A stretch of 64,000 nucleotides of DNA from positions 5,005,001-5,069,000 of the forward strand of contig NZ_CP087106.1 of NCBI RefSeq assembly GCF_028583545.1. The letters run 5' to 3'. This document shows positions 8,479 to 18,757 of this stretch, piece after piece; the stretch's first letter is position 1; every line of letters begins with the position of its first letter. Both the position numbers and the translations under genes were made by a program. This DNA comes from Methylobacterium sp. NMS14P (GTDB lineage Bacteria > Pseudomonadota > Alphaproteobacteria > Rhizobiales > Beijerinckiaceae). A model generated the notes under the pieces. That model saw only the letters and a list, made by a program, of their open reading frames with translations. It was not told the origin of the DNA and did no database searches.

Positions 8479-8624
8479 GGCCGCCCCGGAGCCGCTCCGT
8501 CCCGGGTCCGCCCCCGGCGCCCCGGGACGACGGCGCGGGGAACGGCTTTCGCGGCGGGTCCTCCCTCGGCTAGGACAGCGGGGCGCGCAGCCCTCCGGGT
8601 GCCTGCGCCGAGCCCGGGGGGACC

Positions 8625-9779
8625 ATGGCGGCCAAGGATGAAGCGACGTGGCGGGTCGGCGTCCTGTTCTCCCGCAGCGGGGTGAGCGGCATCACCGAGA
8701 CCGAGCACTTCCTCGGCACCGCCCTGGCGATCGAGGAGATCAACCGGGCCGGCGGCGTGCTCGGGCGCCCGATCGAGCCCGTCTGCTACGACCCCGCCGG
8801 CGACAACGACGCCTACCGCACCCTGGCCCGGCGGATGCTCGCCGAGGACGGGGTCGAGGTGGTGTTCGGCTGCTCGCTCTCGGCGAGCCGGAAATCGGTG
8901 CTCTCCACCGTCGAGCGGCACAACGGCCTGCTCTGGTACCCGTCGATCTACGAGGGCTTCGAGTACTCGGAGAACATCATCTACACCGGGGCGACCCTCA
9001 ACCAGAACGTCTTCGCCCTGGCCGACTACCTGCTGCAGGAGCACGGCGACCGGATCTTCCTGATCGGCTCCGACTACATCTACCCGCGGGAATCGAACCG
9101 GGTCATGCGCGACCTGATCGAGGCGAAGGGCGGGACCATCGCGGGCGAGCTGTACGCGGCCCTCGACGCGGACGACGCGGCCCACGCCGCCATGATCGCG
9201 GCGATCCGCGACGCCGCCCCGGACGCGGTCTTCTCCACGGTGGTGGGGCGCGGCGCCGAGCGGCTCTACCGCGCCTACGCCGAGTCCGGCATCGACCGCG
9301 CCCGCTGCCCGATCGCGAGCCTGACCCTGGCGGAGGGCCAGATCCGCGCGATCGGCCCCGCGCACTGCACCGGCCACGTCCTGGCGGCGCCGTATTTCGG
9401 CGCGCTGCCCGGCGAGGAGAACCGGCGCTTCGTCGCCGCCTTCCAGGGCCGGTTCGGGGCCGAGCGCCCCACCAGCATGTGGTCGGAGACCGCCTACGCG
9501 CAGGTCCACCTCTTCGCCCGGGCGCTCGCGGAGGCCGGCACCCTCGACGCCGAGCGCCTCGGCGCGGCGGCCCTGCGGCAGCGGCTCGCGGCGCCGGAGG
9601 GCGAACTCGCCTTCGACGGCGAGACGCGCCACATCTGGCTCACCCCCGGCATCGGCGTCGCCCGCGCGGACGGGCAGTTCGACGTGGTCTGGCGGGCGCG
9701 GCGGCCGGTGCGGCCCGACCCGTACCTCGCGTGGTCCCGGTTCGAGACGAACTGGCTGGAGGAGGGGCTCGCCGCGTGA
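8625..9779 (+). CDS. amiC: AmiC-like amide sensor (periplasmic-binding-protein fold, cytoplasmic)
   Basis: 384 residues without a signal peptide. The Leu-Ile-Val-binding-protein fold starts at WRVGVLFSRSGVSGITETEH. Segments such as LLWYPSIYEGFEYSENIIYTG and IFLIGSDYIYPRESNRVM are typical of the AmiC/UrtA branch. In Pseudomonas AmiC binds short-chain amides and holds the antiterminator AmiR inactive until ligand appears. Its stop overlaps the GTG of the AmiR-like gene (GTGA at 9776-9779), so the two are translationally coupled as in the known amiC-amiR pair. That this copy senses amides is inferred from the family and the downstream genes. Confidence 0.88.
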   Translation: MAAKDEATWRVGVLFSRSGVSGITETEHFLGTALAIEEINRAGGVLGRPIEPVCYDPAGDNDAYRTLARRMLAEDGVEVVFGCSLSASRKSVLSTVERHNGLLWYPSIYEGFEYSENIIYTGATLNQNVFALADYLLQEHGDRIFLIGSDYIYPRESNRVMRDLIEAKGGTIAGELYAALDADDAAHAAMIAAIRDAAPDAVFSTVVGRGAERLYRAYAESGIDRARCPIASLTLAEGQIRAIGPAHCTGHVLAAPYFGALPGEENRRFVAAFQGRFGAERPTSMWSETAYAQVHLFARALAEAGTLDAERLGAAALRQRLAAPEGELAFDGETRHIWLTPGIGVARADGQFDVVWRARRPVRPDPYLAWSRFETNWLEEGLAA

Positions 9780-10402
9780 CCGCCCCCGCCCGCAAGATCC
9801 TGGACGACCTGCGGCGCGCCCGCGCCCTCGTCGTCCATCCCCGGGACGAGGAGGCCGCCGCGCTGCTCGAGCAGCTCCGCCGCCTCGGCTGCGCGGTCTC
9901 CCTGGCGTGGCCGCCGCCCGCCGCCCTGCCGGCCGACATCGACACGCTGTTCATCCAGCTCGACGACGCCCAGGTGATGCACCTGCTGCCGTCGATCGAG
10001 GCGATCGAGCCAGCGGTCATCGCCATCGTGGCCTACGAGAGCCCGACCTCCCTGAAGGCGATCGCCGACGTCAACGCCCACGGCGTGCTCAACAAGCCGC
10101 TCCACCCGCGGGGCGTGCTGACCCAGTTCGCCCTGGCCCGCTACCGGCGCGGCTACGAGGGCCGGCTCACCAGCAAGATCAACCGGCTGGAGGAGACCAT
10201 GAAGGGTCGCCGCACCGTCGAGAAGGCGGTCCGGCTGCTCGTGGACCTGAATGGGATCGACGAGGACGCCGCCTACAAGATGCTCCGGGACCGGGCCACC
10301 GCCGCCCGCGTGCCGATGGCGAGCGTGGCCGAGGGCGTGGTCTCGGCGCACGAGGCGATGAGCGGCCTCGGCCTGCGCATCGCGTTGGCGGAAAAGTCCT
10401 GA
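9776..10402 (+). CDS. amiR: AmiR-like ANTAR antiterminator
   Basis: 208 residues from a GTG overlapping the amiC-like stop by four bases. Residues 12-125 form a receiver-like domain without a clear phosphorylatable Asp. Residues 125-145 are a coiled coil (LTSKINRLEETMKGRRTVEK). Residues 133-193 are an ANTAR domain (KAVRLLVDLNGIDEDAAYKM, then LRDRATAARVPMASVAEGVV). ANTAR proteins bind paired hairpins in leader RNA and stop an overlapping terminator from forming. The 174-base leader that follows holds a strong terminator and hairpins of the expected kind, so the target is probably the adjacent amidase mRNA. Confidence 0.88.
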   Translation: MTAPARKILDDLRRARALVVHPRDEEAAALLEQLRRLGCAVSLAWPPPAALPADIDTLFIQLDDAQVMHLLPSIEAIEPAVIAIVAYESPTSLKAIADVNAHGVLNKPLHPRGVLTQFALARYRRGYEGRLTSKINRLEETMKGRRTVEKAVRLLVDLNGIDEDAAYKMLRDRATAARVPMASVAEGVVSAHEAMSGLGLRIALAEKS

Positions 10403-10462
10403 TCGCAGCAGCCTGCCGCATTTATGGTCTTGCGGTCTGTTTCGGGGTGCGTATCGTAGTCT

Positions 10463-10519
10463 AACCGGGCAAGGTTGCCCCGCAGCAGCAGTGCTGCACG
10501 ACATCACGGCTTTGAAGCC
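10463..10519 (+). promoter_or_regulatory. putative ANTAR-type tandem hairpins in amidase leader
   Basis: Hairpin 1: GGGC (10467-10470), loop AAGGTT, GCCC (10477-10480); the six-base loop has A at position 1 and G at position 4, as in the published ANTAR RNA motif. Hairpin 2: GCAGC (10482-10486), loop AGCAGT, GCTGC (10493-10497); A1 is present but position 4 is A. A third small hairpin, GGCT-TTGA-AGCC (10508-10519), uses bases of the terminator left arm. The motif match is partial; the location between amiR and the terminator is what makes it convincing. Confidence 0.55.
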
Positions 10520-10560
10520 TCTGGTTCGCGGATGTTTGTGTCCGCGCCCAGGGGCTTTTT
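10516..10560 (+). terminator. intrinsic terminator/attenuator upstream of the amidase ATG
   Basis: Left arm AGCCTCTGG (10516-10524) pairs with CCAGGGGCT (10548-10556). An inner stem CGCGGA/TCCGCG (10527-10532 with 10541-10546) closes an 8-base loop, and the stem ends in a run of five T (10556-10560). It ends 16 bases before the amidase ATG at 10577, so transcription must read through it to express the operon. This is the arrangement controlled by AmiR in Pseudomonas. Confidence 0.85.
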
Positions 10561-10576
10561 GCGTTTCGGAGCTCTC

Positions 10577-11422
10577 ATGATCCAGGCGAACGGTCCCGCG
10601 CGCCCGCCGATACGGGTGTCGTGCATCCAGTTCGAGCCGCAGTTCGGCGCGGTCGCGGCGAATATGGCGCGCGCGTCGGACCTCGTCCGCGCCGCCGCCG
10701 CCGAGGGCAGCCGGCTGATCGTCCTGCCGGAACTCGCCAGCACCGGCTACGTGTTCGAATCCGCCGCGGAGGCCGCCGCGCTGGCCGAGCCGGTGCCGGA
10801 CGGCCCGACGACCCGGGCCTGGGCGGCGCTCGCCGCGGAGCTCGGCGTCCACATCGTGGCGGGGATCGCCGAATCCGCGGGCGAGACCCTCTACAACGCC
10901 GCCGTCATCGTCGGGCCGGAGGGCTACATCGGCACCTACCGCAAGGCGCATCTCTGGGACCAGGAGAACGTGTTCTTCGCCAGGGGCGATCGCGGCTTCC
11001 CGGTCTTCGACACCGCGCTCGGCAAGGTCGGCGTCGCGATCTGCTACGACGGCTGGTTCCCCGAGACCTTCCGGCAGCTGGCGCTCGCCGGCGCCGAGAT
11101 CGTCTGCATCCCGACCAACTGGGTGCCGATGCCCGACCAGCCCGAGGGCGAGGCCGCCATGGCCAACACCCTGCACCGGGCCGCCGCCCACACGAACGGG
11201 ATCTTCATCGCCTGCGCCGACCGGGTCGGAATCGAGCGCGGCCAGCCCTTCGAGGGCCAGAGCCTGATCATCGGCCCCAAAGGCTGGCCGCTCGCCGGCC
11301 CGGCGAGCCGCGACCGGACCGAGACCCTCTCGGCGACGGTCGACCTCGCCGAGGCCGGCCGCAAGGACCTGAACCGGTTCAACTCGCTCCTGCGCGACCG
11401 CCGCACCGACCTCTACGGCTGA
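10577..11422 (+). CDS. nitrilase-superfamily amidase (carbon-nitrogen hydrolase)
   Basis: 281 residues. The nitrilase-superfamily triad is visible: Glu52 in VLPELASTGY, Lys123 in TYRKAHLWDQE and Cys156 in VAICYDGWFPE. It should hydrolyse an amide C-N bond in the cytoplasm, releasing ammonia and a carboxylate. The sequence is not the long aliphatic amidase AmiE (about 345 residues), so the substrate may differ. It is the first gene behind the attenuated leader and is followed by a transporter for urea or small amides. The ATG at 10577 was chosen because codons upstream of it overlap the terminator stem. Confidence 0.9.
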   Translation: MIQANGPARPPIRVSCIQFEPQFGAVAANMARASDLVRAAAAEGSRLIVLPELASTGYVFESAAEAAALAEPVPDGPTTRAWAALAAELGVHIVAGIAESAGETLYNAAVIVGPEGYIGTYRKAHLWDQENVFFARGDRGFPVFDTALGKVGVAICYDGWFPETFRQLALAGAEIVCIPTNWVPMPDQPEGEAAMANTLHRAAAHTNGIFIACADRVGIERGQPFEGQSLIIGPKGWPLAGPASRDRTETLSATVDLAEAGRKDLNRFNSLLRDRRTDLYG

Positions 11423-11489
11423 GCCGAGATCCGTTTCCGCCCCCGTCCGTCCCCTGTCCGTCCCCCTGTCCGTCACAAGGAGTTCGCCC

Positions 11490-12644
11490 ATGGTGAAATG
11501 GTCCCTCGTCGGCGCCACGGCGCTCGCCCTCGCCGCCACGGCCGCGCAGGCCGCCGATCCCAAGCCGATCGTCATCGGCGTGCCCGTCGGCCTGTCGGGG
11601 GCCAACAGCGTCGTCGCGCCCTCGGTGGTGCAGGCGGCCGAGCTCGCCGTGGAGGAGATCAACGCCAAGGGCGGCGTGCTCGGCCGCAAGCTCGTCCTGG
11701 AGGTGGCCGACGACGCCTCCGGGGCGGCCGGCGCCCAGAAGGCCTTCGACAGCCTGATCTACCAGAAGAAGGTCGACGTCCTGATCTCCATGGAGACGAG
11801 CGCGGCCCGCAACGCCGGCCTGCCCGCCGTCACCAAGGGGAAGGTGCCGTACATCTACACCTCGTTCTACGAGGGCCATTCCTGCAACAAGAACCTGTTC
11901 GTGAACGCCTGGGTGCCCGAGCAGCAGGTGCCGCCGGTGGTGGACGCCTTCAAGGCGAAGGGCGCCAAGACCTACTTCCTGATCGGGAGCGACTACGCCT
12001 TCGGCCGCGGCATGCTGGGCTTCGCCAAGAGCTACGTCGAGAAGACCGACGGCAAGGTCATCGGCGAGGAATACCTGCCGATGGACGGCAGCGACTGGAC
12101 GGCGATCATCTCCAAGCTGAGGGAGGCCAAGCCCGACGCGCTGATCACCTCGACGGCGGGCGGCGCGCCGAACGTGACGCTGACCAAGCAATTGCGCGGC
12201 GCGGGCGTGACGCTGCCCTTCGCCAACCTCGCGCTCGACGAGGGCACCGCCAAGAGCATGGGCGCGGACGCCGAGGGCGTCTACCTCTCGGCCTCCTACG
12301 TCACCGGGATCGACAGCGCCGAGAACAAGGCCTTCCTGGCGGCGATGCAGAAGAAGTTCGGCGCGGAGCTGCGCACGCCGAACGACCTGTCGGTGCCGGA
12401 ATACGAGGCGATCTACCTCTACAAGGCCGCCGTCGAGAAGGCGGGCGGGACCGAGACCGCCAAGGTGCTGGAGGCGCTCCCGACCGTGAGCTTCACCGGG
12501 CCGCGGGGCACGATCACCATGAGCAAGCAGCACCACGCGCCGCTGACCATGTATCTCGGCCAGATTCAGAAGGACGGCACCGTGAAGGTCGCCGGCACCT
12601 TCAAGGACGTCGATCCCGGCGAGCAGTGCCCGAAGCTGCAGTGA
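11490..12644 (+). CDS. ABC transporter substrate-binding protein, urea/short-chain amide or branched amino-acid type
   Basis: 384 residues with a signal peptide (MVKWSLVGATALALAATAAQA, cut near residue 21). The mature part is a type I periplasmic binding fold (KPIVIGVPVGLSGANSVVAP, then AELAVEEINAKGGVLGRKL). The late IYTSFYEGHSCNKNLFVN segment resembles the UrtA/FmdD group. It delivers a small nitrogen compound to the permeases encoded downstream. Its neighbours (AmiC/AmiR, two amidases) favour an amide or urea. A 269-base gap with a dispersed repeat separates it from the permease genes. Confidence 0.88.
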   Translation: MVKWSLVGATALALAATAAQAADPKPIVIGVPVGLSGANSVVAPSVVQAAELAVEEINAKGGVLGRKLVLEVADDASGAAGAQKAFDSLIYQKKVDVLISMETSAARNAGLPAVTKGKVPYIYTSFYEGHSCNKNLFVNAWVPEQQVPPVVDAFKAKGAKTYFLIGSDYAFGRGMLGFAKSYVEKTDGKVIGEEYLPMDGSDWTAIISKLREAKPDALITSTAGGAPNVTLTKQLRGAGVTLPFANLALDEGTAKSMGADAEGVYLSASYVTGIDSAENKAFLAAMQKKFGAELRTPNDLSVPEYEAIYLYKAAVEKAGGTETAKVLEALPTVSFTGPRGTITMSKQHHAPLTMYLGQIQKDGTVKVAGTFKDVDPGEQCPKLQ

Positions 12645-12686
12645 GGCGACGAGCGCGCGGCTCGTTCTTCGCCGCATAGGCGACGC

Positions 12687-12832
12687 ACCCCCTCTCCCGT
12701 GCGGGAGAGGGTTGGGGTGAGGGACCGGACGTTCCAGGATCGCGCGCGCCGTCGCCGCGCGGTCGAGGTCGAGACTTTCTCGGAGAGGCCGCACCCCTCA
12801 CCCGGTCCCCTCTCCCGAACGGGAGAGGGGAC
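12687..12832. repeat. dispersed repeat, family B, copy 1
   Basis: About 146 bases bounded by hairpins: CCCTCTCCCGTGCGGGAGAGGG at the left and CCCTCTCCCGAACGGGAGAGGG at the right. The core includes GTCGAGACTTTCTCGG. A second copy with the same ends and core lies at 19771-19915. It sits inside the transporter operon between the binding protein and the first permease. Confidence 0.85.
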
Positions 12833-12913
12833 CGGCGTACGATCCTGAGACCGCGTCGCCCCTGCCGATGGCTGTTCCGCCGCGCGACGGCGACCCTTCA
12901 TCCGGAAACCCCG

Positions 12914-13747
12914 ATGCTGCTCACCCTCGACATCCTGACCACGGCGGCGATCCTGTTCATCGTCTCGATCGGCCTCCTGGCGATCTTCGGCGTGCTCAAG
13001 ATCATCAACTTCGCCCACGGGGCGTGGCTGACGGTCGGCGCCTACTGCGCGGTGGTGACCGCCAAACTCGGGCTCAACCCGTGGGCGGCCCTGCCGCTCG
13101 CCTTCGCGGTCGGGGCGGTTCTGGGCGGACTCGCCGAGCACTTCATCATCCGCCCGCTCTACCGGCGGCCGCTGGACGCGATCCTCGCCACCTGGGGGCT
13201 CGGCATCGTGGCCGGGCAGCTCATCACCCTGGCCTTCGGCCGGGACGTCCAGCTCACCCCGAACCTCTACGCCGGCACCGTCGAGATCCTTGGCGTCGAC
13301 TACTCGGCCTACCGCCTCGTGGCGCTCGGCATCGCGCTGGCGATCGGCACGCTGTTCGCGCTCACCATCGAGCGGACCCGGCTCGGCCTCTCGGCCCGGG
13401 CGGTAATCATGAACGAGACCCTGGCGCGCAGCCTCGGCATCGACACGGGGCGCGTGCGCCTCGTCGTGTTCATGCTCGGCGCCGGCTTCGCGGGCCTCGC
13501 GGGCGTCCTGCTGACGCCGCTCACCAGCGTCGACCCGAACATGGGCGTCTCCTGGCTGATCGGCGCCTTCATGCTGGTGATGGTCGCCGACGCCTCGTAC
13601 CTGGCGCTCGCGGCGGCCTGCCTCGTCTTCGGGGCCGCACAGGTCCTGATCAGCACCTTCGTGAGCCCGATCCTGGGCAGCATCGCCGTCGCGGTGCTCG
13701 CCGCCCTCGTGCTGCGGATCAGCCCGAAAGGTTTCTCCCGTGCTTGA
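12914..13747 (+). CDS. branched-chain amino-acid/urea-type ABC permease (LivH/UrtB-like)
   Basis: 277 residues with about eight hydrophobic segments and the LivH signature near the start (LLAIFGVLKIINFAHGAWLT). The cytoplasmic loop RTRLGLSARAVIMNETLARS and the conserved GAGFAGLAGVLL segment fit the family. It forms half of the membrane channel with the next gene. The stop overlaps the next start by 8 bases (13740-13747), pointing to translational coupling. Confidence 0.92.
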   Translation: MLLTLDILTTAAILFIVSIGLLAIFGVLKIINFAHGAWLTVGAYCAVVTAKLGLNPWAALPLAFAVGAVLGGLAEHFIIRPLYRRPLDAILATWGLGIVAGQLITLAFGRDVQLTPNLYAGTVEILGVDYSAYRLVALGIALAIGTLFALTIERTRLGLSARAVIMNETLARSLGIDTGRVRLVVFMLGAGFAGLAGVLLTPLTSVDPNMGVSWLIGAFMLVMVADASYLALAAACLVFGAAQVLISTFVSPILGSIAVAVLAALVLRISPKGFSRA

Positions 13748-15545
13748 GACCCTGCCCGTTGCCGAGCGCGCCGCCGCGGCGCCCCGCGGACGCCGCCTGT
13801 CCCGCGCCGCGCCCTTCGTGGTCGCGGCCCTGGCGGCGCTGGCCCTCTGGATCGCGCCGCTCGTCCTCGACACCTTCGCGGTCAACGTCCTGACCCGCTC
13901 GATGATCTACGCGGTGCTGGCCGTCACGGTGGACCTGCTCTGGGGCTTCGCGGGGATCCTGACCTTCGGGCAGGCGGCGTTCTTCGGCATCGGCGCCTAC
14001 GCCACCGCGATGATCCTGGCCGCCTACGGGGCGACGCCGCTGGGGATCGCCGCGGCGGTCGCGGCGGCGCTCGCGGTGCCGGCGCTGCTCGGCCTCGCGG
14101 TCGGCTGGCTGTCCTTCTACCACCGCTCGACCCCGCTCTACGCCTCGGTGATCTCGCTGGTCGTCCCGATCGTCGTGGTGCAGCTCATCTACGCGGGCGG
14201 GGAATGGACCGGCTCCAGCAGCGGGCTCGTCGGCTTCGACGTGCTGCCCTTCGAGACCGAGGGCTTTTTCCGCCTCGCGGCGCTGTTCCTGGTCGTGGTC
14301 ACGCTGGCGGCCTGGATCCTGGTCCGGGCCGATGCCGGCCGCGCCCTCGTGGCGCTCCGGGACAACGAGGCGCGCTGCGCCTATCTCGGCCTCAACCCGC
14401 GGCGCCTGCAAATCCGGCTGACCGCGTCGCTCGCCGCCGTCGCGGGGCTCGCGGGCTTCCTGTTCGCCAACGCCTCCGGCGTGGTCGCGCCCGAGAATGC
14501 CGGCTTCCTGTTCGGCACCGAGCTGGTGATCTGGGTGGCGCTGGGCGGCCGCGGCACCCTGCTCGGCCCGGTGCTCGGCACCGTCGCGATCGACTACCTC
14601 GCGGCGAACCTCTCAGGCGATCTGCCGTTCCTCTGGCAGCTCCTCCTGGGGACGGCCTTCGTGGCCATCATCATCCTGCTGCCGGGCGGCCTCGCCGACC
14701 TCGTCGGCCGCCTCTGGCGGGCGCTGCCGGTGGGCCGGCGGCAGCCGGCGCCGCCGCGCCTCGTCGCGCGGGTGGCCGCCGCGGAGCAGACCGCCGCCGC
14801 GACCCCCATCCTCAAGGTCGAGAACCTCGCCAAGGCCTACGGCGCCCTGACGGTTCTGGAGGGCATCGACCTGGAGATCCGGGCGGGCGAGCTCGTCAGC
14901 CTCGTCGGGCCCAACGGCGCCGGCAAGACCACGCTGATGCGCTGCCTCAGCGACGGCACCGAACCGTTCAAGGGCGCGATCGCCGTCGGCGGCACGCCGA
15001 TCACCGGGCTGACGCCGAACCGGATCGTCGGCCTCGGCGTCGGGCGCAAGTTCCAAGTGGCGAGCGTGTTCGAGAGCCTGTCGGTGGCCGACTGCCTCCG
15101 CCTCGCCCGGGCGTCCCACGATGGCCTGAGCCCGGTCGGGCGGGCCGAGACGCTGGGCCTGCCGCAGCCGGCCCTCGACGTCCTGCGCATGACCGGCCTC
15201 GACCGCCAGCTGACGCAGCCGACGCGCCTCCTGTCCCACGGGCAGAAGCAGGCGCTGGAACTCGCCATGGTGGTGGCGCTGGAGCCGCGGCTGATCCTGC
15301 TCGACGAGCCCACCGCCGGCCTGACCAAGGCCGAGCGCACCACCATCGGCACCGTCCTCAAGGCGCTCACCGCCGAGGGCCGGATCGCCGCCGTGCTGGT
15401 CGAGCACGACCTCGACTTCGTGCGCGAGATCTCGTCGCGGATCGTGGTGCTGCACCAGGGCCGGCTCGTCCTCGACGGCACCGTGGAGGCGGTCGTCGGC
15501 TCGGAGCTGGTCCGGACCATCTATTCGGGAGGCGGCCATGGTTGA
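13740..15545 (+). CDS. fused ABC permease-ATPase (LivM-LivG / UrtC-UrtD-like)
   Basis: 601 residues from a GTG. Residues about 20-330 are a LivM-like permease (ILTFGQAAFFGIGAYATAM and a long series of membrane helices). A linker around 330-355 leads to a LivG-like ATPase at 358-600: Walker A GPNGAGKTT, signature LSHGQKQALELAM, Walker B LILLDEPTAG and switch His in VEHDLDF. Usually these are separate proteins. The fusion guarantees one-to-one assembly; it has been seen in some related transporters, but its effect here is inferred. It overlaps both neighbours by 8 bases. Confidence 0.92.
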   Translation: MLETLPVAERAAAAPRGRRLSRAAPFVVAALAALALWIAPLVLDTFAVNVLTRSMIYAVLAVTVDLLWGFAGILTFGQAAFFGIGAYATAMILAAYGATPLGIAAAVAAALAVPALLGLAVGWLSFYHRSTPLYASVISLVVPIVVVQLIYAGGEWTGSSSGLVGFDVLPFETEGFFRLAALFLVVVTLAAWILVRADAGRALVALRDNEARCAYLGLNPRRLQIRLTASLAAVAGLAGFLFANASGVVAPENAGFLFGTELVIWVALGGRGTLLGPVLGTVAIDYLAANLSGDLPFLWQLLLGTAFVAIIILLPGGLADLVGRLWRALPVGRRQPAPPRLVARVAAAEQTAAATPILKVENLAKAYGALTVLEGIDLEIRAGELVSLVGPNGAGKTTLMRCLSDGTEPFKGAIAVGGTPITGLTPNRIVGLGVGRKFQVASVFESLSVADCLRLARASHDGLSPVGRAETLGLPQPALDVLRMTGLDRQLTQPTRLLSHGQKQALELAMVVALEPRLILLDEPTAGLTKAERTTIGTVLKALTAEGRIAAVLVEHDLDFVREISSRIVVLHQGRLVLDGTVEAVVGSELVRTIYSGGGHG

Positions 15546-16281
15546 GGCAGCACGGCAGGCAGCGCGGCAGGCTGCGCCGGCGGGGGACGCCCTCGCCCTC
15601 GACGGCGTGTCGAGCGGCTACGGCGCCGTCGCCATCGTCAAGGACGTGTCCCTCTCGGTCGGAGCGGGGGAGATCGTGGCGCTGCTCGGCAAGAACGGCA
15701 TGGGCAAGACCACGCTGCTCAAGACCGTCCTGGGCATGGTGGCCCTGCGCGGCGGCGCCATCACGGTCGGGGGCCAAGCGCTGGCCGGCCTCACGCCGGC
15801 CAAGCTCAACGCGCTCGGCGTCGGCTACGCGCCGCAGGAGCAGCCCCTGTTCCAGGACCTGTCGATCCGCGACAACCTGCGCCTCGCGGTGCCCTCCGAC
15901 CGGATGCTGCCCGCGGCGCTGGAGCGGCTGTTCGGCCACTTCCCGTTCCTGAAGGACCGGCTGGCCCAGCGGGCCGGCACCCTCTCGGGCGGTGAGCAGA
16001 AGATGCTGATCCTCGGGCGCGCCCTGATGCTGCGGCCGCGCCTCCTGCTGATCGACGAGATCTCCGAGGGCGTGCAGCCCTCCATGGTCGAGCGCCTGCG
16101 CGGCGTGCTCCAGGCCGAGCGGGCCGCGGGCGTGTCCATGCTGGTGGTGGAGCAGCACGTCGCCTTCGCGCTGGCGCTCGCCGACCGCTACGCCGTCCTG
16201 AAGCTCGGCGAGATCGTCGACAGCGGTCCGGCGCAGGCGCCGGACGCGCGGGCGCGCGTCATCGACCATCTGGCGGTGTGA
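15538..16281 (+). CDS. ABC transporter ATPase (LivF/UrtE-like)
   Basis: 247 residues. Walker A is GKNGMGKTT, the signature LSGGEQKMLILGRALM, Walker B LLLIDEISEGVQPSMV; the D-loop and switch region VVEQHVAFAL are intact. EISEGVQP is the form seen in LivF/UrtE subunits. It should pair with the ATPase half of the fused gene to power uptake. The ATG lies inside the end of the fused gene (8-base overlap). It is the last transporter gene; a family A repeat follows. Confidence 0.93.
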   Translation: MVEAARQAARQAAPAGDALALDGVSSGYGAVAIVKDVSLSVGAGEIVALLGKNGMGKTTLLKTVLGMVALRGGAITVGGQALAGLTPAKLNALGVGYAPQEQPLFQDLSIRDNLRLAVPSDRMLPAALERLFGHFPFLKDRLAQRAGTLSGGEQKMLILGRALMLRPRLLLIDEISEGVQPSMVERLRGVLQAERAAGVSMLVVEQHVAFALALADRYAVLKLGEIVDSGPAQAPDARARVIDHLAV

Positions 16282-16431: not shown

Positions 16432-17364
16432 ATGAGAGAACTCAACACCTTCTCGATCGCCGCCCGCTGCCCGCGGACCGGCCAGCTCGGCGTCGCGGTG
16501 GCGAGCGCCGTCCCGGCGGTGGGCGGGCTGTGCCCGTTCCTCAGGGCCGGGATCGGGGCCGTCACCACCCAGTCCTGGGTGAATCCCTACCTCGCCGCCC
16601 GCATCCTCGACGGGCTGGCCGGCGGGCAGGATCCCGACGCGGCGCTGGCGGCGGCCCTCGCCACCGACGACCGGCCGGACCTGCGCCAGCTCGGCCTCGT
16701 CGACGGGCACGGGCGGGCCGCCGCCTGGACCGGCGCCGGCTGCACGGCGGCGGCCGGCCACCGCACCGGGATCGGCTACGCCGTCCAGGGCAACATGCTC
16801 GCCGGGCCGGGCGTGATCGACGCCATGGCGGAGGCCTTCGCGGGGAGCGCCGCCCAGGATCTGGACGAGCGGCTGACGCGCGCCCTGGAGGCCGGCGACG
16901 CGGCCGGCGGCGACCGGCGCGGCAAGCAGTCGGCGGCGCTCAAGATCGTCGCCGGCGAGGATTACCCGCTCCTCGACCTGCGGGTCGACGAGCACGCCGA
17001 GCCCGTCGCCGAGCTGCGCCGCGTCCTCGCGGTCGCCCGTCGGCAGCTCGTGCCGTTCGTGGCCGGCATGCCCCGGAAGGACGGCCCGGCCGGTGCCCTG
17101 CCGGACGACGTCGTGGCGATGCTCCTGAGGGGCCCCGCCGAGCGGCCGGGCGCGGCGACCGTCGATGCGCCGGACCTCCTGCGCGACGTCGTCGGCCTGC
17201 GCCAGGAGCCCCGGCGGGTCGCGCACCTGCTGGCGCAGTTCGCGCCGGTGCTCGCCGAGATCGCGCGGCTCCGCGACCTCGACCTCGCGGACATCCATCC
17301 GCCGGTCGTCTTCGATCCGACCTTGCCGTACCGCCGGGTGCCCCATGACGACCGCCGCGACTGA
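16432..17364 (+). CDS. DUF1028 (Ntn-hydrolase-like) protein with AtzG/GatC-like C-terminal extension
   Basis: 310 residues. Residues 1-205 match DUF1028, a family with an Ntn-hydrolase-like fold: NTFSIAARCPRTGQLGVAVA at the start, and GYAVQGNMLAG in the core. DUF1028 would end near 205 (LDLRVDEHAEPVAELRRVL). Residues about 244-302 form a helical stretch followed by DIHPPVVFDPTLPYRR, which resembles the small AtzG/GatC-type subunit of AtzE-like amidases. The next gene is such an amidase and starts inside this one (20-base overlap). The extension assignment is a visual inference and needs a profile search. Biochemical function of DUF1028 is unknown. Confidence 0.8.
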   Translation: MRELNTFSIAARCPRTGQLGVAVASAVPAVGGLCPFLRAGIGAVTTQSWVNPYLAARILDGLAGGQDPDAALAAALATDDRPDLRQLGLVDGHGRAAAWTGAGCTAAAGHRTGIGYAVQGNMLAGPGVIDAMAEAFAGSAAQDLDERLTRALEAGDAAGGDRRGKQSAALKIVAGEDYPLLDLRVDEHAEPVAELRRVLAVARRQLVPFVAGMPRKDGPAGALPDDVVAMLLRGPAERPGAATVDAPDLLRDVVGLRQEPRRVAHLLAQFAPVLAEIARLRDLDLADIHPPVVFDPTLPYRRVPHDDRRD

Positions 17365-18757
17365 CGCCCTCTGGCAAGCCCCGATCACCGAGCTCGCGCG
17401 CCGGATCGCGGCGCGGGAGCTGTCGAGCGCCGAGCTCGTCGGCGCCAGCCTCGACCGGATCGCGCGCCTCGACGGCGCCCTGAACAGCTTCGTCCACCTC
17501 TCGCCCGCGGCCCTCGACGCCGCGCGCGCGGCCGATGCCGAGATCGCCCGGACGGGTCCGCGCGGCCCGCTGCACGGCATTCCGATCGCCGTCAAGGACA
17601 ACTACACCACGGCCGACATGTCGACCCGGGCCGGCACGGCGGTGGAGGCCCTGACCTTCCCGGCGGCCGACAGCCACGCCGTGGCGCGGCTGCGGGCGGC
17701 CGGCGCGGTGATCCTCGGCAAGACGCGGATGCACGAATTCGCCTGGGGCATGGTCACGCCGCCGACCCGCAACCCCTGGGACCCCGACCGGGTGCCCGGC
17801 GGCTCCAGCGGCGGCTCGGGCGCGGCGGTCGCGGCCCGCCTCTGCCCGGCCGCGCTCGGCTCGGACACGGGCGGCTCGATCCGGATCCCGGCCGCCCTGT
17901 GCGGGGTCGTCGGCCTCAAGCCGACCTACGGCCGGGTCGGCCGGTCGGGGATCGTGCCGCATTCCTGGTCCCTCGACCATGCCGGGCCGCTGACCCTGAC
18001 GGTCGCCGATGCCGCCCTGATGCTGCAGGCGCTCGCCGGGCCGGATGCCGGCGATCCCGCCGCCAGCGCGGCGCCGGTCCCCGACTACACGGCCGGGCTG
18101 GACCGGCCGATCCGGGGCCTGCGGGTCGCGGTGATCCGCAACCACTTCTTCGACGCGGTCGACGACGACGTCGCCGCCGCCGTCGAGGCGGCGCTCCGCT
18201 TCCTCGAAGACCGGGGCTGCGCGGTGCGCGACGTCGCGGTGCCGTCCCTGCGCCACGGCCTCGGCGCCATCTACGCCATCGAGCTCGCCTCCTCGACCGC
18301 CTACCACGACCGCAGCCTCGCCCGGGGCCACGTGGCGGGCTTCGCCGCCGACGTCCGCGACCTCGTGGAGATGGGCCGGCTCGTGACCGGGCCGGACTAC
18401 CTGCGCGCCGAGCAGGTGCGGGCCCTGATCATGGACGAGATGGCCGCCGTCCTGGCCGAGGCCGACGTGATCGTCGGCCCGGCCTCGCCGCTGACCGCGT
18501 GGCGGACGGACGAGTCCGCGGTGTCGCTCGGCGGGCGCGCGGAGAGCGTGCTGGCGGCCTCCTGGCGCCTGACCTACCCGTTCAACCTCGCGGGCCTGCC
18601 GGCCATCGCGCTGCCCTGCGGCTTCGACCGGCGCGGCCTGCCGATCAGCCTCCAGATCGCCGCCCGGCCCTTCGCCGAGGCCGAGATCCTGCGCGTCGCC
18701 CACCAGTACGAGCGGGCGCACGACTGGTGGTCCCGGGTGCCGCCCCTGGCCGCCTGA
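17345..18757 (+). CDS. amidase-signature enzyme (AtzE/GatA-like)
   Basis: 470 residues. The amidase-signature catalytic set is present: Lys84 in GIPIAVKDNYTT, the glycine/serine loop PGGSSGGSGAAVAA at 151-164, and the nucleophile Ser178 in SDTGGSIRIPAALCG. It hydrolyses an amide bond in the cytoplasm. The start is the ATG at 17345, inside the DUF1028 gene, which implies coupled translation. Homologs of this branch act on biuret-type or acylated amides together with a small GatC-like partner; the substrate here is not known. The gene closes the amide locus. Confidence 0.92.
   Translation: MTTAATDALWQAPITELARRIAARELSSAELVGASLDRIARLDGALNSFVHLSPAALDAARAADAEIARTGPRGPLHGIPIAVKDNYTTADMSTRAGTAVEALTFPAADSHAVARLRAAGAVILGKTRMHEFAWGMVTPPTRNPWDPDRVPGGSSGGSGAAVAARLCPAALGSDTGGSIRIPAALCGVVGLKPTYGRVGRSGIVPHSWSLDHAGPLTLTVADAALMLQALAGPDAGDPAASAAPVPDYTAGLDRPIRGLRVAVIRNHFFDAVDDDVAAAVEAALRFLEDRGCAVRDVAVPSLRHGLGAIYAIELASSTAYHDRSLARGHVAGFAADVRDLVEMGRLVTGPDYLRAEQVRALIMDEMAAVLAEADVIVGPASPLTAWRTDESAVSLGGRAESVLAASWRLTYPFNLAGLPAIALPCGFDRRGLPISLQIAARPFAEAEILRVAHQYERAHDWWSRVPPLAA

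Follow-up and report, generated by a model that had tools for sequence, protein, structure and literature searches.

A three-hairpin leader behind amiC–amiR in Methylobacterium: a probable variant of AmiR antitermination

Directly behind the amiC–amiR gene pair of Methylobacterium sp. NMS14P lies a leader with several hairpins and a terminator, followed by a nitrilase gene. The locus raises the question of whether AmiR reads this RNA and, if so, through which hairpins. Very probably, it represents AmiC–AmiR antitermination of a nitrilase/ABC-transporter operon by a three-hairpin variant with relaxed loops; within this reading, we infer AmiR binding, the inducer or ligand, the direction of control, the transcription start and the role of the hairpin P0. 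The features of the window, i.e. the whole stretch of 64,000 nucleotides that was analysed, are as follows.

8625–9779, + strand: amiC-like sensor gene (384 aa; Peripla_BP_5, PF13433, E 2.8e-127)
9776–10402, + strand: amiR-like antiterminator gene (208 aa; GTG start; overlaps the end of amiC)
10403–10576: leader interval, starting right behind the amiR stop at 10402
10430–10457, + strand: promoter-like elements TTGCGG (10430–10435) and TATCGT (10452–10457), spacer 16 nt
10467–10480, + strand: hairpin P0, GGGC-AAGGUU-GCCC, loop A1/G4; extra hairpin near the expected 5' end
10481: single base separating P0 from P1
10482–10497, + strand: hairpin P1, GCAGC-AGCAGU-GCUGC, loop A1/A4; first hairpin of the ANTAR-type pair
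10498–10507, + strand: P1–P2 linker of 10 nt, with a conserved ACAU at 10501–10504
10508–10519, + strand: hairpin P2, GGC-UUUGAA-GCC, loop U1/G4; putative antiterminator hairpin, 3' arm forming the terminator base
10515–10560, + strand: intrinsic terminator, AAGCCUCUGG...CCCAGGGGCUU plus U run; fold z −4.3
10568–10571, + strand: GGAG resembling a ribosome-binding site (by eye)
10577–11422, + strand: nitrilase-superfamily hydrolase (281 aa; PF00795, E 1.1e-55), first gene of the putatively controlled operon
11490–16281, + strand: UrtA/B/CD/E-like ABC transporter (binding protein, two permeases, two ATPases)
16432–18757, + strand: DUF1028 protein (PF06267) and amidase-signature hydrolase (PF01425)

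Genes, promoter-like elements and fold of the leader

The AmiC-like protein matches the P. aeruginosa AmiC structures 1pea and 1qo0 (E 6.9e-84), and the AmiR-like protein matches the AmiR of structure 1qo0 (E 1.6e-23) and contains the domains AmiR_N (PF21332, E 1.1e-32) and ANTAR (PF03861, E 1.4e-12). Judged by domains and overlapping genes, an AmiC-type sensor and an AmiR with a pseudo-receiver domain share one operon, as in an AmiC–AmiR system. The window hydrolase matches the aliphatic amidase model less well than it does other nitrilase-superfamily models. At 27 of 27 further three-hairpin loci that were checked, a relative with 55–86% identity stands behind the leader (at L028, as a 148-residue segment only). 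The second permease of the ABC transporter is fused to an ATPase, and the transporter parts score below the NCBIfam urea cut-offs. From their position and common strand, the DUF1028 and amidase-signature genes would belong to the same operon. The preliminary description had proposed AmiC/AmiR antitermination of a nitrilase plus a urea-type transporter. The control itself is supported by domains, gene order, the conserved leader and the decay in G964 described below, whereas “amide” as the substrate is suggested by homology.

The genome contains three ANTAR matches. A second AmiR-like ANTAR gene (L003, G000:C1:3722611-3722763; 32% identical) lies, by eye, before an ABC binding-protein-like gene, and a search with the leader model R1 (see below) found no R1-type leader at that locus.

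A consensus scan of 8500–12900 found no sigma-70 site, and the promoter assignment therefore rests on conservation: a TTG[AC] motif resembling a −35 element begins 36–40 nt ahead of P0 in 28 of 28 curated three-hairpin leaders. RNA from the candidate promoter would begin near 10464–10467. The spacing in all 28 leaders suggests that transcription starts only a few bases from P0, which is probably located at the 5' end of the transcript. A promoter/terminator scan of 8500–12900 missed both this promoter and this terminator, the latter presumably because an inner loop interrupts the stem.

Between the amiR stop and the promoter (10404–10428), the window carries the 9-mer CGCAGCAGC, which recurs at 10481. 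By eye, close relatives (e.g. L016, L017, L018 and L042) show a short inverted repeat GCAG..CTGC in the corresponding place, immediately ahead of ATT(T)AT-G-CTTG. The repeat may be an operator, or it may form an additional hairpin on RNA reading through from amiR.

The terminator consists of the left arm AAGCCTCTGG (10515–10524) and the right part CCCAGGGGCTT, and its T run extends to 10560, which leaves 16 bases up to the nitrilase ATG at 10577, as first described. The initial account of the hairpins also agreed with the sequence: two close hairpins have six-base loops, the first with A1 and G4 (P0, AAGGTT) and the second with A1 only (P1, AGCAGT), and a third small hairpin (GGC-TTTGAA-GCC, 10508–10519) shares the terminator left arm. 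By sequence and fold, the P2 3' arm (10517–10519) lies inside the terminator 5' arm.

By energy, the terminator alone stands out, and P0 and P1 do not. None of 200 shuffles folded as well as 10500–10567 (z −4.3). The corresponding values were z −1.35 for 10440–10505 (22 of 200 shuffles as good), −1.10 for 10460–10524 (24 of 200), −0.87 for 10403–10505 (33 of 200) and −1.8 for the whole leader, 10403–10590 (10 of 200). P0 and P1 were present in the folds of 10440–10505 and 10460–10524, the latter also containing P2, and absent from the minimum fold of 10403–10505; in the two local folds, their loops close to four bases via a pair between loop positions 1 and 6. An Rfam scan of the window returned no family at its gathering score; near the leader, there were three sub-threshold matches, the best being radC with 18.1 bits against a cut-off of 40. 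Since P0 and P1 are unproven by energy, their support comes from conservation. The failure of energy alone to single out these hairpins would suit a plain terminator, or an attenuator that acts constitutively, at the boundary of amiCR and the following operon, with the hairpins as GC-rich by-products. We consider this reading extremely improbable, as it is contradicted by the conservation, the both-sided stem changes, the linked occurrence with amiR (21 of 22 genomes) and the decay in G964.

Conservation of the leader and its linkage to amiR

Antitermination by AmiR, the reading that we favor, was examined in relatives of the locus. The AmiR alignment scan of named genomes gave 52 loci, the closer of which share the leader; P0, P1, P2, the terminator and the gene order are common to Rhizobiales and Rhodobacterales relatives. 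The preliminary description would have been undermined by a lack of hairpin conservation among related leaders, and P0, P1, P2 and the terminator were found to be kept. In a 20-row alignment (A3), 99.6% of the stem cells are paired. Changes on both sides affect 16 stem cells, against a mean of 6.1 in shuffles, none of which (0 of 500) reached this number; the covariation score of 0.177 exceeds the 0.096 of the shuffles (0 of 500 as high) and the 0.147 of the best slid control. The numbers of pairs with both-sided change and of further pair types in A3 do not exceed the shuffles (320 and 500 of 500 as high, respectively). The P2 stem GGC..GCC is invariant in 20 of 20 rows and thus gives no covariation support; it could also be taken for simply an arm of the terminator together with a conserved GGC. 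In the curated leaders, the second pair of P0 is G-C in 12 and A-U in 16 of 28 and the third is G-C in 27 and A-U in 1, while the third pair of P1 is G-C in 20 and A-U in 7 of 27 (L016 has an irregular P1).

The linker was thought to be sequence-free, yet the ACAU of the window is nearly invariant. In A3, the ACAT columns show no change across 20 of 20 rows; exceptions outside A3 are L067, L068, L074 and L104. By eye, a linker ACAU is also found in some leaders of the Met-type AmiR discussed below (L008, L011 and L012). At L016 (3707–3759) of Methylobacterium nonmethylotrophicum, P0 is perfect and P1 is degenerate, with a five-base loop and no A1.

The linkage of the leader to amiR was analysed with R1, a model of P0, P1 and P2 whose seed included the window leader. 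In the genome of 6.9 Mb, R1 gave one strong match of 67.5 bits; the runner-up had E 0.63, and 150 of 6864 candidates were scored. This single strong site does not support the regulon idea for this leader type. Seed members score high by construction; three-hairpin leaders outside the seed scored 41.2–68.9 bits (L075, 68.9; G897, 61.5; G969, 61.0; L069, 58.8; G881/G823, 58.3; L067/L068, 49.8; G890, 46.6; L036, 42.7; L039, 41.2). Among 397 genomes of the order, 64 had a match at E 0.05 and 22 at E 0.001 or better; 42 had matches only at E 0.001–0.05, where about 20 are expected by chance, these E-values being rough. Directly upstream of 21 of the 22 best matches lies an amiR with Thr at the plug position, and the 22nd match, in G964, lies behind an amiR remnant. 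Likewise, a Thr-type amiR occurs in 22 genomes, and in 21 of them an R1 match at E ≤0.001 lies right behind the gene; the other, G694, has no R1 match. In G1007, amiR is split by a frameshift, and Thr is still read at the plug position.

Some loci differ in arrangement. In Chenggangzhangella methanolivorans (L042, 3001–3611; L101), amiR is split by a frameshift and the leader is intact, which reflects either a sequencing error or a recent loss. The Bradyrhizobium LY.7 contig (L007/L019 and L052) carries a second AmiR N-terminal fragment approximately 6 kb upstream, and no amiC match was found within 1.5 kb ahead of its amiR. Two terminators in a row lie behind amiR at L011 (2059–2113 and 2170–2235) and L012 (minus strand, 1439–1489 and 1332–1380), with ANTAR-like hairpins ahead of each (weak R1 matches; by eye), possibly forming a double attenuator.

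G964 provides a natural loss of amiR. This genome (L181, G964:C12:296500-305500; L170) retains the nitrilase (79% identical), the binding protein (87%) and the permeases. Within the 9-kb region, amiR is reduced to a C-terminal-end fragment in two pieces and no amiC was found; the whole genome gave no AmiR match at E 1e-15. Compared with L015, G964 differs at 13 of 42 sites of P0–P1–linker and at 4 of 62 sites of P2–terminator (Fisher p 0.002); compared with L017, L018, L014 and L042, it differs at 12–16 of 42 and 5–10 of 62 (p 0.007–0.02). L015 itself differs from the amiR-carrying L014, L017, L018 and L042 at 1–7 of 42 and 2–6 of 62 sites, and from the window at 7 of 42 and 31 of 62, the last value arising because the ungapped comparison runs over terminator loops of unequal length. 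For the P0–P1 stretch, the optimal fold weakens from −17.6 to −5.5 kcal/mol in G964, and both hairpins are missing from it. The stronger decay of P0 and P1 relative to P2 and the terminator ties both hairpins to AmiR. In this single case, the decay, P0 included, agrees with what loss of the reader protein would predict.

Hairpin pairing, loops and the role of P0

PMC3369931 defines dual-hairpin ANTAR RNA by a nearby gene for an ANTAR-domain regulator, stems of at least 3 bp, six-base loops with A1/G4, a linker of about 5–12 nt and a second hairpin that overlaps a terminator, the regulator binding the RNA and permitting read-through. P1 and P2 have stems of 5 and 3 bp, six-base loops that may close to four bases via a 1–6 pair and a linker of 10 nt; P2 overlaps the intrinsic terminator, and an ANTAR-domain gene (PF03861) is adjacent. 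A1 and G4 in both loops were not found: in the window, the rule holds for P0 and fails for P1 (AGCAGU, A4) and P2 (UUUGAA, U1). Because the strict dual-hexaloop rule fails, we file the leader as a variant and not as a plain member. A variant RNA site had been anticipated from one loop, and the departure is larger, comprising A4 of P1, U1 of P2 and the extra P0.

Sharing of the P2 3' arm with the terminator makes P1 and P2, with their 10-nt linker, the counterpart of the known two-hairpin ANTAR RNA. The pair had initially been taken to be P0 and P1. That assignment was abandoned, since the known second hairpin overlaps the terminator and the eut leader linkers are 5–12 nt long (PMC3369931), which fits P1 and P2.

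The history of P0 was traced with a hand-made hairpin table and a 48-row AmiR tree, which was built by a quick method and contains some long branches. The table leaves out near-identical Rhizobium leaders (L024, L025, L027, L029, L034, L035, L037, L038 and L040), other near duplicates (L044, L046, L068, L071, L086, L088, L089, L096, L099, L105 and same-genome repeats) and L042, whose amiR is frameshifted. Given the hand coding, P0 with an AmiR-like loop was gained once, on the branch to 28 rows (support 99). Hairpins with other stems at the P0 place (L043, L045, L070 and L104) were coded as lacking P0; the L045 loop there (U-GGGC-A) is similar to P0 loops, and the single gain therefore depends on this coding. 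The tree indicates that P1 and P2 are the ancestral ANTAR pair and that P0 is an addition in one AmiR clade. Binding of P0 and P1 by AmiR as its two-hairpin target, with P2 incidental, is improbable. Although the P0 and P1 loops are more alike than either is to P2, and only P0 among the window loops has A1 and G4, these two hairpins are spaced by 1 nt, and binding them alone would leave the terminator untouched. Moreover, P2 is the most conserved hairpin, and earlier-branching relatives have P1 and P2 without an AmiR-like P0.

The consensus A-R-G-N-Y-U is common to the loops of P0 (20 of 28) and P1 (22 of 32). In rows with Thr or Ser at the plug position, the six-base P2 loops are U-N-N-G-N-A in 33 of 33 (G4, U1–A6) and have A1 in 0 of 33, the longer loops of L092 and L097 being uncounted. 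A1 together with G4 occurs in 6 of 28 P0, 19 of 32 P1 and 0 of 33 P2 loops (P1 and P2: Thr/Ser rows), and position 4 of the P0 loop is G in only 6 of 28.

Several relatives outside the clade (L070, L104 and L043) have hairpins with unrelated stems at the P0 place, suggesting that P0 may have a role apart from AmiR. It may be a 5'-terminal hairpin that protects the mRNA or prevents 5' misfolding, with AmiR using P1 and P2 only, a reading that we regard as possible, though short of likely. This role is consistent with the low frequency of G4 and with the location of P0, which in 28 of 28 leaders is where the transcript should begin, as well as with the P0–P1 gap of about 1–3 nt, which does not exceed the 3-nt linker that, according to PMC3369931, strongly reduced EutV induction. 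In contrast, the loop sequence shared with P1 argues against a stabilizer, as does the decay of P0 along with P1 in G964, in which the retained nitrilase would still profit from one.

The altered loops are accompanied by altered contact residues in AmiR. Seven of the 11 RNA-contact positions of EutV are identical or basic in the window AmiR (EutV numbering): R142, K147, E160, Y164, R168 and R175 are kept and K143 is R, while K149 is changed to V, M172 to T, N173 to A and R177 to P. At the loop-plug position, EutV-172, where Met is expected, the window AmiR has Thr175 (EutV number + 3). According to PMC8934654, Met172 of EutV is essential for RNA binding and was suggested to exclude smaller loops, e.g. 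tetraloops. The fetched loci aligned at this position, with known duplicates removed, have Met in 72, Thr in 52 and Ser in 2, and the residue changes only twice on the AmiR tree. P1 loops pair 1–6 in 29 of 32 Thr/Ser rows compared with 5 of 13 Met rows, and P1-type loops have G4 in 19 of 32 compared with 13 of 13, both under the same selection bias. The automatic motif search gave a candidate in 21 of 66 Met rows and 49 of 54 Thr/Ser rows. Of the Met rows, 11 candidates were kept, and L009 and L010 were added by eye; dropping implausible Met candidates (L051, L056, L059, L063, L113, L114, L132, L136, L138 and L140) favors canonical loops, and the rows are also related. The joint occurrence of Met172Thr and tetraloop-closable loops is thus suggestive, in a biased comparison with very few changes.

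Proposed mechanism and relation to known systems

In the proposed antitermination, transcription of the operon would begin just ahead of P0. Without inducer, AmiR would be held by AmiC, and the RNA would form the terminator and stop at about 10560. An amide-type ligand on AmiC would free AmiR as a dimer, which would bind the nascent hairpins and stabilize P2; the stabilized P2 would block the terminator, whose left arm contains the P2 right arm. P0, at the extreme 5' end, would most likely give AmiR an additional site for loading.

The authors of the EutV crystal structure noted that the dimer cannot touch both hairpins of one RNA and asked why both are needed; they propose, as a model still to be established, that P1 is bound first and then P2 (PMC8934654). 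A corresponding stepping antiterminator, in which AmiR would load on the 5'-terminal P0 and move via P1 to P2, Thr in place of the Met plug accepting 1–6-closed tetraloops, is rather doubtful. The clade with a third hairpin, a lost Met plug and a relaxed A1/G4 rule offers a natural series for testing ANTAR loading and stepping and which loop features count. Searches demanding A1/G4 in both loops would miss much of this clade.

The window shares with P. aeruginosa an AmiC-like sensor beside an AmiR-like pseudo-receiver/ANTAR protein. The amiC/amiR gene order of P. aeruginosa differs from that of the window, where amiC–amiR lies upstream of the controlled operon. The window hydrolase, nearer to other nitrilase-superfamily models, heads an ABC transporter operon, the leader has the extra hairpin P0, and AmiR has Thr where P. 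aeruginosa AmiR and EutV both have Met. Both leaders have a terminator before an amide hydrolase and P2 at the terminator base, the P. aeruginosa leader being compared as described in the text of PMC3369931. The EutV/EutW dual-hexaloop leaders of Enterococcus faecalis, described in the same paper, resemble the window leader in the hairpin pair, the 10-nt linker and a P2 exclusive with the terminator. In contrast, the window loops break A1/G4, there are three hairpins, and a ligand sensor protein replaces the kinase. The NasR/NasT nitrate leaders likewise combine an ANTAR protein, a leader terminator and nitrogen genes, but use other sensors; NasR SELEX showed a clear A1/G4 preference (PMC7496416).

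This leader fronts a nitrogen-scavenging gene cluster and would add an extra hairpin and altered loops to a known kind of switch, AmiR antitermination. Among the open-access papers listed, surveyed by titles and abstract openings, we found none on a three-hairpin ANTAR leader, nor on this operon. ANTAR matches before urea transporter genes are reported in PMC3369931, and these may include relatives of this leader.
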